34,076 nucleotides of DNA from Erysipelotrichaceae bacterium. Lineage in GTDB: Bacteria; Bacillota_I; Bacilli_A; Erysipelotrichales; Erysipelotrichaceae. Shown here piece by piece: positions 3,265 to 34,076 of the stretch (positions are counted from its first letter, which is position 1; each line of letters begins with the position of its first letter). The DNA is taken from positions 1 to 34,076 of the forward strand of contig JAQYFP010000068.1 in assembly GCA_028723085.1 (NCBI GenBank), given 5' to 3'. A program made the position numbers and the translations under genes. The notes beneath the pieces are model-generated. The model saw nothing but the letters and a program-made list of their open reading frames with translations, did no database searches and was not told where the DNA came from.

Positions 3265-3503
3265 ATAAAGGTTATGAAAAGAAGAATAGCTTAATAGGAT
3301 TTTAAAGAGAGTCTTTGGATGGTGGAAAAAGATAATGATAATTAAGTGAAGATGGTCTTGGAACTGGATAATCGATAGGTAGGTTATCACGCAAGTAAGC
3401 GTTAAAATACGTAGTCAATAAGACTGATAAGACCATAATTGTGAGGTTATGGTGAATTTAGGTGGTAACACGATATGCTCGTCCTAATTGGATGAGCTTT
3501 TTT
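3265..3503 (+). ncRNA. T-box leader, probably Met-responsive
   Basis: AGAGAGT...GGATGGTGGAAAA stem I apical motif, T-box-like TTTAGGTGGTAACACG (3457-3472), terminator GCTCGTCC/GGATGAGC + T6 (3477-3503); sits before a methionine-pathway gene; candidate AUG specifier in GAAGATGGTC. Confidence 0.88.
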
Positions 3504-7983: not shown

Positions 7984-8031
7984 TAAAAAAACTTCCACGA
8001 ATCAGTGTTAGCAACTACTGTCCCATGGAAG
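7984..8031 (-). terminator. Riboswitch expression-platform terminator
   Basis: On minus strand CTTCCATG ... CGTGGAAG followed by T7; 5' arm overlaps the aptamer P4 strand. Confidence 0.8.
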
Positions 8032-8096
8032 AAATGATTTCCACTGTCACTTTTGTGACCCGACTCCATAACTATGTTACGGTCTGCTCAGTTTGT
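8014..8096 (-). ncRNA. NiCo (czcD) riboswitch aptamer
   Basis: Minus strand ACAAACTGAGCAGACCGTAACATAGTTATGGAGTCGGGTCACAAAAGTGACAGTGGAAATCATTTCTTCCATGGGACAGT; shares CTGAGCAG..., G-CGGG-, and ATGGGACAG with described NiCo RNAs; precedes a CDF efflux gene. Confidence 0.88.
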
Positions 8097-8221
8097 ACTG
8101 TAGATTCAATGCAGCGCAAAGAGTATATATATAGTATCGATTATATTTTTTTAAGTCAATTTGATTTGGTTAGGCATATATAATTGATGTATAATAAAAA
8201 ACGAAATTGAAAGAGGTAGTT

Positions 8222-30708: not shown

Positions 30709-30798
30709 AAATCAAAACCTCACTTTACTTTATAGGACTGCTTCTTGTATCTTAATTCTATAAACATAATTGACATTATGGATGATGAAAAAGAAAAA

Positions 30799-30834
30799 AG
30801 CTCTGATACACACATCAAAGTGTTTTTCAGAGCT
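30799..30834 (-). terminator. Terminator of the radical-SAM/peptide operon
   Basis: Minus strand AGCTCTGA...ACACTTTGATGTGT...TCAGAGCT TTTTTTC, nested stems. Confidence 0.75.
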
Positions 30835-30845
30835 TAATTTTTTTA

Positions 30846-30952
30846 ACGAAACCCCAGTTAACCATGGTAAAAAAGGAGACCACGGTTAATGACCCCGGTG
30901 TTGACCCCAATTAAATTTGGTAAAACCCCGCTTAAGTTGTTACCCTTGATTA
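30846..30952. repeat. ACCCC-centred repeat cluster, possible IS21-like terminal remnant
   Basis: ACCCCAGTTAACCATGGTAAAA (30851) and ACCCCAATTAAATTTGGTAAAA (30904) 18/22 identical, plus further ACCACGGTTAA, ACCCCGGTGTT, ACCCCGCTTAA units. Confidence 0.5.
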
Positions 30953-30973: not shown

Positions 30974-31804
30974 TTACTTTTTATTAATTCTTTCATTATA
31001 AATTTTTTCTTTATCAACAAGATCAGAAATCATGTTTCTTCGTATTTTTACTTGATCATTCATTTCATTTATTTTTTCTAACAAATCATCTGCCTTTGAT
31101 GCTTGTCTATCAAATAAAAATCCAAATCCATTTACTGAATCAAACATTTTATCTTGAATTCTATCCAATTGTTTATCTAAACTACATATATTTTTTTTCA
31201 ATTCCTCTATTTCATAATTTAGTATTTCTTTTTCATTTTCACAAAATTCATGTGCTAAATTTTCATATTTTCCTTTTAATTGTTCAAAGTCATCTCGTAT
31301 TTCAGTTAATTTCACTAAATCATTTGATTCTTCATTTTGATCATATTCATCGCATAATTTTATATATTCATCATTAATAGAACATAATTCCCTAGTACTA
31401 TCGTGTACTGGCGTATTACCGAAAATTTCTAGAAACAATTCTATTTTTTTTGAGCACATTCTCATATTTATGCAAATATCAAATTTAGTTACAGTAATAC
31501 TTGCTTTTTCATTTTTCGTATTTTGTACATTTTCATCCTGGAGATTATTTTTCTGTTCTTGTTTTTTCTTATTATCATAATACGTATTTTTCATTTTTTG
31601 CGCATTTCTATGACTATTATTCGCTTTATTTTTTGCTGATTGTATTTCACTATTACTTTTATCAGATAGCGTTGTGCCAGCTTTTTTTGCACTATTCTCT
31701 GCACTTTTCTCTATTTCTGATACTTTCTTTTGTGCTTCTTTTGCAATTTTTTCGTTGATATCCAAAGAAGCCTCCATCACTTTATCAAAAAAATTTGATT
31801 TCAT
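30974..31804 (-). CDS. Coiled-coil hypothetical protein, downstream gene of the radical-SAM locus
   Basis: 276-aa ORF rich in K/E/N with long predicted coiled coils; 30 nt after the maturase stop. Confidence 0.75.
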   Translation of the reverse strand: MKSNFFDKVMEASLDINEKIAKEAQKKVSEIEKSAENSAKKAGTTLSDKSNSEIQSAKNKANNSHRNAQKMKNTYYDNKKKQEQKNNLQDENVQNTKNEKASITVTKFDICINMRMCSKKIELFLEIFGNTPVHDSTRELCSINDEYIKLCDEYDQNEESNDLVKLTEIRDDFEQLKGKYENLAHEFCENEKEILNYEIEELKKNICSLDKQLDRIQDKMFDSVNGFGFLFDRQASKADDLLEKINEMNDQVKIRRNMISDLVDKEKIYNERINKK

Positions 31805-31834
31805 ATATTAATCCTTTCCTCAATAACAATTCGG

Positions 31835-33308
31835 CTATTCATTCATAACTAATGGTAAATCAATATAAATGACATACTTTTCATTTACTATTTCTACTTT
31901 ATTTACTTTTTTATCTTTGAAAGCATTTACTGCTTTCTTGCTATATGCTTGAGAATACTGATCTTTAACAAAAGGATTCTCAGTTTCTTTTTCACATATG
32001 ATTTTATCAATTTTGAAATCTTCTTTTTCAAGAACCTCCACACAATCTAATAGTGTATATCCAATTAATGAATCTAAATTCAACATCAACTTATAGCAAG
32101 TATTTCCTAACATATCGTCAATAAATTCCTCCTTATTTTTCCATGTTGATTCATAAGGATTATATGTACAATACCAAGGTTGAGCATACACATTTTTTGA
32201 AATACTGTCCGCTCTGCAATCATAGCAAGCATACCTTAACTCACAATCCTTACACACATCAATTTTGTCTTTATTCATAAAATAGATTTCTTGGTTTAAA
32301 ACATCTTTTAACCTTTTCCCATACAAATTACCATGACTAATTCTTCTTTCCATTACACATGGAAAAATATCAAGATTTGCTGATATATAAATTTTTTTTT
32401 GAAAAACATTTATGATATTTAAGACCATTTATAAACATTGTCGAAAATACTTTATTTTTAAAATTTTGTTCCGTAATCAATTTCTTTTCTAATAATTCTC
32501 GATTAAGTAAATTTACCTCAGCTCTTCCACTCATTCGTACAATATCCCTGCTTGGGTTAAGAGTAAATAGATCATCTCTTTTAACTCCTAAAATACAACC
32601 ATCCATATGAACGGTCGCAATCTTATAGGGTATTCCCTTTTCCTTTAAAATTCTTATTGCGTTTGTGGTTTTATTAAACGAGCCTTTAATTTTTGTTACT
32701 GAATCATGAAAATAAGCATTATAAGAATATAATGATAATGCAACTTTTATGTTATTTTCTTTAAAGAAATTTGCCCATTCTTCATTTAATAACGTTCCGT
32801 TTGTAAAAACTTCAATATATTCAAATTTATCTTTGGCATATTCAATCATTTTCTTTAAATTATCACCAATCAACAATGGCTCACCACCAATAAATTGTAT
32901 TTTTGATATTTTATTTTCAAATAATTCATCAAGTATATATTTAGCTGAATCATAATCTAAGCTACTGTTGCATTCACTTGAAGATTCTTCATAACAATGT
33001 TTACAATACAAATTACACTTTGTAGTTACTTCAATCCAAGCAAATTCGATATTATTTTTCCCTATTTGTATATTTTCAATTTCTCCATCACTAAATTCTG
33101 ATTCACTTACATCTACTAGAATTTCTTTTTCAAAACATCTATCAAGGAAACTATCATTTCCACCATAGCATTGATTATCTAAAAGTAAGTTCTTTATTTT
33201 ATTTGTATCGCTTTTATAAATTTGAAAATATTCCCCAGTATTTAAATTGTATATACAATCCTTTTTTGCACCATAAACGAGATACACATTTTTATTAAAA
33301 GATAACAT
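31835..33308 (-). CDS. Radical SAM/SPASM peptide maturase, split by a frameshift at an A9 tract
   Basis: N-terminal ORF 32370-33308 has a PqqD-like region and TTKCNLYCKHCYEE (CxxxCxxC); C-terminal ORF 31835-32428 has IFPCVMERR...CKDCELRYACYDCRADS...PWYC (SPASM-like). Frames rejoin if A9 at 32392-32400 becomes A8. Confidence 0.88.
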
Positions 33309-33325
33309 AGTAGCCTCCTCTATAC

Positions 33326-33351
33326 AAAAATAGGAACACTAAGTTCCTATT
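33326..33351 (-). terminator. Attenuator-type hairpin between precursor and maturase
   Basis: Minus strand AATAGGAAC ttagt GTTCCTATT then TTTTG. Confidence 0.75.
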
Positions 33352-33357
33352 CTTTCA

Positions 33358-33537
33358 CTATACATACAATGCGTTTAAATCATTATCATACGTTGTAGTA
33401 TGTATACTATTCAAAAGACCATTAGCAAAATCAATATCAGGTTGACAATCTTGATCACTTGGATAACATACAGGATAACAAGAAGCATCAACCGGTTCAC
33501 AATCTCCATTTGGATAACATTCAAATATCATTTTCAT
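33358..33537 (-). CDS. Cys-rich 59-aa putative RiPP precursor MKMIFECYPNGDCEPVDASCYPVCYPSDQDCQPDIDFANGLLNSIHTTTYDNDLNALYV
   Basis: AAAGGAGG 7 nt before ATG at 33537 (track start at 33558 contains the Shine-Dalgarno); five Cys in CYP-x2-3-DC[EQ]P repeats; next to a radical SAM/SPASM gene. Confidence 0.85.
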   Translation of the reverse strand: MKMIFECYPNGDCEPVDASCYPVCYPSDQDCQPDIDFANGLLNSIHTTTYDNDLNALYV

Positions 33538-33617
33538 ATAAGTTCCTCCTTTCTTCACAAATTTTGAATAGATAAAAATTTATATGCCATGACAACAATT
33601 GTCATTGCTTCGATACA

Positions 33618-33797
33618 TTAGAATTTTTTCCACCAATCTTTATGCTTATCTATAAATTCAGCTCTTTTTTCAATCTCGCATTCATACCATTCTTTATTAG
33701 TTGGATTATCCTCACAATTAGAAGCTAATAACCATTCTTCATAATTCTCAGGCTCTTTTGACCAATCCCAACTGCTATCATCTCTACTATTTCCCAT
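33618..33797 (-). CDS. Trp-rich 59-aa small protein MGNSRDDSSWDWSKEPENYEEWLLASNCEDNPTNKEWYECEIEKRAEFIDKHKDWWKKF
   Basis: Below the 60-aa cutoff of the ORF track; ATG preceded by GGAG with suitable spacing; 7 Trp in 59 aa. Confidence 0.65.
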   Translation of the reverse strand: MGNSRDDSSWDWSKEPENYEEWLLASNCEDNPTNKEWYECEIEKRAEFIDKHKDWWKKF

Positions 33798-33895: not shown

Positions 33896-33906
33896 CCCCC
33901 CCCCCC
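33896..33906. repeat. Poly-C(11) / poly-G(11) homopolymer
   Basis: TTTTCCCCCCCCCCCGTATG in otherwise AT-rich DNA. Confidence 0.9.
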
Positions 33907-33958: not shown

Positions 33959-34076
33959 TGAACCGAACCCAATAATTTGGACAAATTAATTTTTAAGCTG
34001 ATGCTAAGGATTGGCTTCTGTATTGTGCAGGAGTTAATCCTTTTAATTTTGTTACTATTCTTTGATTATTATAATA
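33959..34076 (-). mobile_element. IS3-family element end, right-truncated by the window
   Basis: Minus-strand YYNNQRIVTKLKGLTPAQYRSQSLASA* (IS3 OrfB C-terminus, stop at 33993) followed by a candidate terminal repeat TGAACCGAACCCAATAATTTGGACA. Confidence 0.82.

Follow-up and report, generated by a model that had tools for sequence, protein, structure and literature searches.

A repeated Cys-x-Pro peptide beside a radical SAM/SPASM protein: a putative RiPP family with separate and enzyme-fused candidate substrates

Main finding

A short peptide with cysteines set in repeated Cys-x-Pro (C-x-P) motifs is encoded beside a radical SAM/SPASM protein in the genome of an Erysipelotrichaceae bacterium. 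It is likely that this peptide is the precursor of an unnamed RiPP family built on repeated C-x-P, and that the adjacent protein is its maturase. The substrate would be offered in trans at this locus and in cis at others. C-x-P is regarded as the substrate because the motif is invariant, co-occurs with the enzyme, alternates between cis and trans arrangements and is restricted to one clade. The existence of the locus was confirmed and it resembles RiPP loci, though it is no recognised sactipeptide or ranthipeptide locus. The fused relatives described below suggest, from their sequences, an unrecorded family of enzymes that would modify their own tails.

The locus in the window

The stretch of DNA analysed here (the window; 34,076 nucleotides) is from contig C68 of a 1.9 Mb genome in 184 contigs, and the host has been described as a gut-type bacterium. 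On the minus strand, four neighbouring co-oriented ORFs with small intergenic gaps were found, encoding Trp-rich, Cys-containing, radical SAM and Lys/Glu-rich proteins (Table 1). A purine-rich site is located 5' of every ORF start, with the exception of the internal start of the maturase. The original prediction had placed four such ORFs between a poly-G tract and a terminator; the layout, the tract and the inverted repeats were all recovered, and the maturase turned out to occupy two ORFs. The C11 tract is possibly a phase-variable promoter spacer; apart from it, the genome contains a single run of nine C. Neither a dedicated transporter nor a dedicated protease was observed next to the C-x-P peptide.

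Table 1. Positions of features of the locus in the window
Feature	Position	Strand	Basis or remark
Trp-rich ORF, 59 aa, orphan	33618..33797	-	sequence; link to the system unsupported
Gene of the C-x-P peptide (59 aa), a putative RiPP precursor	33358..33537	-	5/5 Cys in C-x-P
C-x-P core CYPNGDCEPVDASCYPVCYPSDQDCQP	33439..33519	-	sequence
Cys-free C-terminal part DIDFANGLLNSIHTTTYDNDLNALYV, possible follower (recognition) segment	33361..33438	-	resembles L002 leader
Maturase part 1: RRE-like N-terminal region and radical SAM core	32370..33308	-	PF04055; homolog alignment
A9 tract, one base extra relative to the homologous frame, splitting the maturase	32392..32400	-	T9 on the + strand
Maturase part 2, other frame: SPASM domain and C-terminal extension	31835..32428	-	PF13186
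C-terminal extension of the maturase, about 90 aa	31835..32122	-	lacking in L002 and L005; matches no family
Lys/Glu-rich protein, 276 aa, probably coiled-coil	30974..31804	-	30 bp downstream, co-oriented; link to the system unsupported
C11 tract (G11 on the operon strand), upstream of the operon	33896..33906	.	sequence
Inverted repeats resembling a terminator, downstream of the operon	30789..30896	-	30896-30876 minus; arms 30789-30844

The complete sequence of the peptide is MKMIFECYPNGDCEPVDASCYPVCYPSDQDCQPDIDFANGLLNSIHTTTYDNDLNALYV, and the start of its ORF is preceded by AAAGGAGG. Its earlier description as Cys-rich holds only in part: there are no more than five Cys, all of which stand in C-x-P, and none of 200,000 shuffles of the same residues gave five such motifs. 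The peptide is single-copy in the genome and has no family match among the NCBIfam and Pfam profiles. When its Cys-free C-terminal part was compared with the leader of the peptide in a locus of the same genus (L002, see below), a local alignment score of 35 was obtained, which was reached by 5 of 20,000 shuffles in this post hoc comparison.

The radical SAM ORF, with GAGGAGG 5' of its start at 33308, stops a few residues past the A9 tract, and the protein resumes in the next frame; the homologs are unbroken across this position. PF04055 matches the first part with 78.6 bits (core motif CNLYCKHCY) and PF13186 the second with 22.8 bits, where the SPASM sequence reads CKDCELRYACYDC. The CX3CX2C motif, the GGE motif and the SPASM cysteines expected of a radical SAM/SPASM protein are all present, though spread over two ORFs, and the RRE-like region covers approximately residues 1-85.

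The frameshift is one of several signs by which the locus might be read as a decaying remnant, i.e. an inactive cassette acquired horizontally. An insertion-sequence end is located nearby (33993-34076), the GC content of the locus is 27% against 31%, and a relative was found in only one of the four same-genus genomes searched. Such decay is nevertheless rather unlikely, in that the reading frame that follows the shift stays open over 197 codons and keeps its SPASM cysteines, and ribosome-binding sites are present; a change of one base in a 9-base homopolymer may reflect phase variation, slippage or an assembly error as well as mutation. The insertion-sequence end itself, at the end of the contig, looks like the C-terminus of a transposase, YYNNQRIVTKLKGLTPAQYRSQSLASA, presumably of the IS3 type.

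Relatives with a separate peptide

Three independent full-length relatives of the maturase, 29-32% identical to it, were identified, each beside a different C-x-P peptide. Together with the window these make four separate-peptide loci, the only ones found, with the genome contigs covered by one maturase scan. In the same-genus genome G004 (locus L002, of which L004 is a named copy), the maturase is 32% identical and unbroken, and a peptide ending in GCLPQDEHGCYPSCPPCNPCWPDA is encoded just upstream. The scan of 84,980 species gave the other two full-length relatives, in a Clostridium MAG with a 10-motif peptide downstream (L005) and in a Ruminococcus MAG with a 4-motif peptide upstream (L006). 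Broader sampling of genomes from the order, class and phylum yielded no locus beyond those of the window and G004. Over the four loci, 24 of the 24 core Cys are in C-x-P and the flanking residues are variable. Because the position, length and leader of the peptide differ from locus to locus, the motif is considered to be the conserved element.

The pairing of a Cys-motif peptide with a SPASM-type radical SAM protein, which had been proposed from the window alone, was borne out by these relatives. Maturase homologs without the Cys peptide had been named beforehand as the finding that would speak against it; the pair is kept across phyla and therefore the proposal withstood that test. As is general for RiPPs, an encoded candidate precursor is kept beside the modifying enzyme among relatives. 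As a separate observation, the Ruminococcus maturase (L006:4971-6710) has a C-terminal domain of the uracil-DNA-glycosylase superfamily (PF03167, 29 bits).

Relatives with the array fused to the enzyme

The fourth and fifth best matches, from Sungbacteria (L007) and Obscuribacterales (L008), have no separate peptide; the array instead forms the end of the radical SAM protein itself. The fused array was also found in proteins from plasmids and prophages (Streptomyces, Amycolatopsis, Rhizobium, Paraburkholderia) and on IMG/VR contigs, and this form spans a large actinobacterial and proteobacterial group, including actinobacterial prophages. The tail was not involved in the search patterns. Matches of L002 to plasmids by tblastn looked like generic radical SAM proteins, and it was the translation of their tails that revealed C-x-P. 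The 33 fused tails have 3 to 42 motifs each and 213 Cys in total, of which 202 belong to a C-x-P; all 42 tail Cys of a 585-aa radical SAM ORF on an IMG/VR contig (L143:3959-5716) are in the motif. The tails of L130, L139 and L145 contain internally repeated units (for example GGCPPNDSNDCNPASTEACAP in L139), which look like multiple cores.

The separate-peptide enzymes have an N-terminal RRE-like domain that is missing from the fused enzymes, which begin almost at the radical SAM core and whose SPASM domain ends after its first half. A comparable arrangement is known from the borosins, in which the enzyme bears its own substrate as a C-terminal tail; the borosin enzyme is an N-methyltransferase, whereas that of the C-x-P system is a radical SAM enzyme. 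In the structural model of L008, most of the core has a pLDDT above 90 and the tail 31-43; SkfB was the best match, and SkfB, SuiB and CteB are the closest folds to the fused form. The modelled tail appears flexible, which suits a substrate, although low pLDDT alone is no proof of disorder.

Since the array begins at the place expected for the last SPASM cysteines, some tail Cys may bind an Fe-S cluster. In its full form, this reading makes C-x-P a ligand of Fe-S or another metal, the fused tail replacing the second SPASM half and the Firmicutes peptide being a detached metal carrier or electron-transfer partner. It would account for the retention of the first half (C-x2-C...G-x4-C) with the array in the place of the second cluster motif, and for the three C-x-P near the protein end that are common to fused forms. 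It is quite improbable as a general explanation, in that the motifs vary in number as widely as given above, are irregularly spaced and lie in internal repeats, the tail is predicted to be unstructured, RiPP methyltransferases adjoin the fused enzymes, and the separate-peptide enzymes retain a complete SPASM domain yet have a C-x-P peptide. Metal binding is thus weakened though still standing. Fe-S ligation as the sole role of C-x-P was judged unlikely given the 42-motif tail.

An unusual tail was observed in the Mycobacterium prophage protein prophi68-1 gp78 (L117:2071-2990), where a TGA stop is located exactly at the first tail Cys (SSG*GPNCNPQCTPQTICAPTHCVP). The annotated protein lacks the tail because of this stop, which may be a nonsense change or a case of special decoding.

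Restriction of the array to one clade

Among the loci L004-L083, the array was found only with the five best relatives, L004-L008. The control loci of other radical SAM proteins (n=110) gave only 4 chance matches, all on the opposite strand. A tree was built on the radical SAM core, with the tail excluded, from 29 C-x-P enzymes and 27 other radical SAM proteins. The C-x-P enzymes, fused and separate, lie on one side of a branch (support 100/99) against the others, which are all motif-free. Among the C-x-P enzymes the fused forms are a single group (support 100/96), whose separate-peptide counterparts have no resolved order in this tree. The maturase of the window lies inside the clade with its array adjacent. 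At the level of sequence, these comparisons show that the C-x-P array, whether a separate gene (in Firmicutes) or an enzyme tail, goes with one radical SAM clade only.

Comparison with known families

The locus had been assigned to the sactipeptides or ranthipeptides, and this part of the original prediction was not sustained. No NCBIfam maturase model reached its cut-off with the window maturase, the scores being far below it for the sactisynthases AlbA (86 bits, cut-off 850) and StsB (66, 625), the ranthipeptide enzyme PapB (67.4, 340) and CcpM (TIGR04068; 67.8, 500). The ranthipeptide motif CX3D is not kept, with D at +4 of the Cys in 6 of 24 cases in the separate peptides.

An ordinary sacti- or ranthipeptide, with thioethers of known type from Cys to an alpha-carbon or to Asp/Asn and with C-x-P as a quirk of sequence, is possible though somewhat doubtful. 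SkfB and CteB are the nearest solved structures by sequence, and SkfB and SuiB the nearest by fold. SuiB and SkfB are also the best fold matches of the L005 model (weak, with a mean pLDDT of 60). D is the most frequent residue at +3 (9/24 separate-peptide Cys, 41/213 tail Cys), and PapB is reported to accept Cys-Xn-Asp with n=0-6 (PMC9413430), which was counted for this reading. The distance from the maturase models stands against it, as does the conservation of Pro at +2 for 226 of 237 Cys, with Asp/Glu conserved at no offset. It also overlaps with the preferred explanation of an unnamed C-x-P family, and would settle the chemistry of that family rather than overturn it.

Several likenesses to described systems can be pointed out. 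With the ranthipeptides (PapA/PapB, freyrasin), the locus shares a short Cys-repeat peptide with many motifs beside a SPASM radical SAM enzyme, but the repeat is CX3D/E there and C-x-P here. With the sactipeptides (SkfB, AlbA, StsB), it shares the closest solved structures and, in the separate form, possibly an RRE-like N-terminal region; the literature searched describes neither a repeated C-x-P nor an enzyme-fused form for these systems. In the L005 model this region consists of strands 9-12, 19-22 and 27-31, helices 35-44 and 55-61 and strand 65-68 (pLDDT about 55-76), i.e. the order bbb-aa-b expected for RRE domains, which are PqqD-like winged helices. CcpM aligns from the N-terminal region through the radical SAM core (residues 8-236), but at the low score given above. 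TvgA/TvgB and the Asp-Cys repeats (PMC9062424) likewise combine a precursor of repeated short motifs with one radical SAM enzyme; their motifs are TVGG and Asp-Cys, and neither C-x-P nor an enzyme-fused precursor was found described for them. In the open-licence literature searched, no C-x-P precursor and no enzyme-fused radical SAM precursor was found. A defence role of the viperin kind was rejected, in that the pVip models match through the shared radical SAM core only and the NCBIfam viperin model gives 82 bits against 180 (L002).

Neighbouring genes and methyltransferase clusters

Directly downstream of the enzyme in at least 16 fused loci lies a relative of the graspetide methyltransferases (PF01135), whose best NCBIfam match is TIGR04188 (graspetide methyltransferase; 246-266 bits, cut-off 380). 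Asp-Gly/Ser/Thr is present in 16/16 tails beside this methyltransferase versus 5/17 without it; these are raw counts that ignore relatedness, and L139 was left out of the 16 since its neighbour lies beyond the contig. It was reported that 249 two-gene clusters of a radical SAM enzyme and a PAMT exist in which no precursor was detected (Adv Sci 2023, PMC10787088). These clusters and the fused relatives share the same gene pair, in which a radical SAM enzyme is accompanied by an aspartyl methyltransferase of the RiPP type; no substrate was found in that study, and the enzyme's own C-x-P tail is proposed here. The published clusters may belong to the same family as the fused C-x-P enzymes. The window locus differs from them in that no aspartyl O-methyltransferase, which would mark a Pamtide or PAMT-associated RiPP, is present beside its peptide.

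The coiled-coil and Trp-rich proteins of the window had been counted as members of the system. No homolog of either was found beside the maturase relatives and none that was credible in 59 related genomes, where the coiled-coil protein gave marginal matches only; for these reasons a role as conserved partners is unsupported and their membership is not claimed. Other neighbours were noted among the fused loci. L114, L116, L119, L128, L129 and L132, all methyltransferase-free, have a conserved APH-like phosphotransferase neighbour in common, and on a Streptomyces plasmid haaN, annotated as a cyclophane-RiPP N-acetyltransferase, is located near a fused C-x-P enzyme (L122:913-3340).

Proposed mechanism and significance

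In the proposed mechanism, the enzyme would modify each C-x-P unit. Given the known chemistry of the nearest enzymes, the likeliest reaction is one driven by the 5'-deoxyadenosyl radical, linking the Cys sulfur to a nearby carbon as a thioether with a change of -2 Da per unit; by this analogy, C-x-P is probably cross-linked through its Cys. The invariant Pro could be the acceptor or set a turn. The peptide of the separate form would be held by the N-terminal RRE-like domain. This domain and the second SPASM half are absent from the fused form, where the tail would be delivered in cis. In many actinobacteria the neighbouring aspartyl O-methyltransferase would then probably act on Asp-Gly/Ser between the C-x-P units. 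The A9 tract in the window may mean that the system is inactive here, that it is phase-variable or that the assembly is wrong at this point.

A wider proposal can be put forward tentatively, as a real possibility rather than an expectation. Radical SAM enzymes that modify themselves may form a widespread class. Each would carry its own precursor at the C-terminus, as an array of 3 to 42 Cys-x-Pro, and a cross-link of undescribed type would tie every Cys to the Pro or to a neighbour; the window would hold the split form of this class, and the class would account for the radical SAM-methyltransferase clusters that have no substrate. The two-gene rSAM-PAMT clusters left without a substrate by genome mining are thereby given a concrete candidate. 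The fused tails also suggest that RiPP precursors can hide as maturase tails, invisible to searches for small separate genes, and the split form in the window connects the two-gene and the fused architectures. Cross-linking would make the C-x-P unit a compact modification that can be repeated; metal binding would make it an unusual Cys-rich tail for a radical enzyme to carry.

Two regulatory elements elsewhere in the window scored above the Rfam gathering score, a T-box leader at 3265-3489 (+) and a NiCo riboswitch at 8016-8101 (-).
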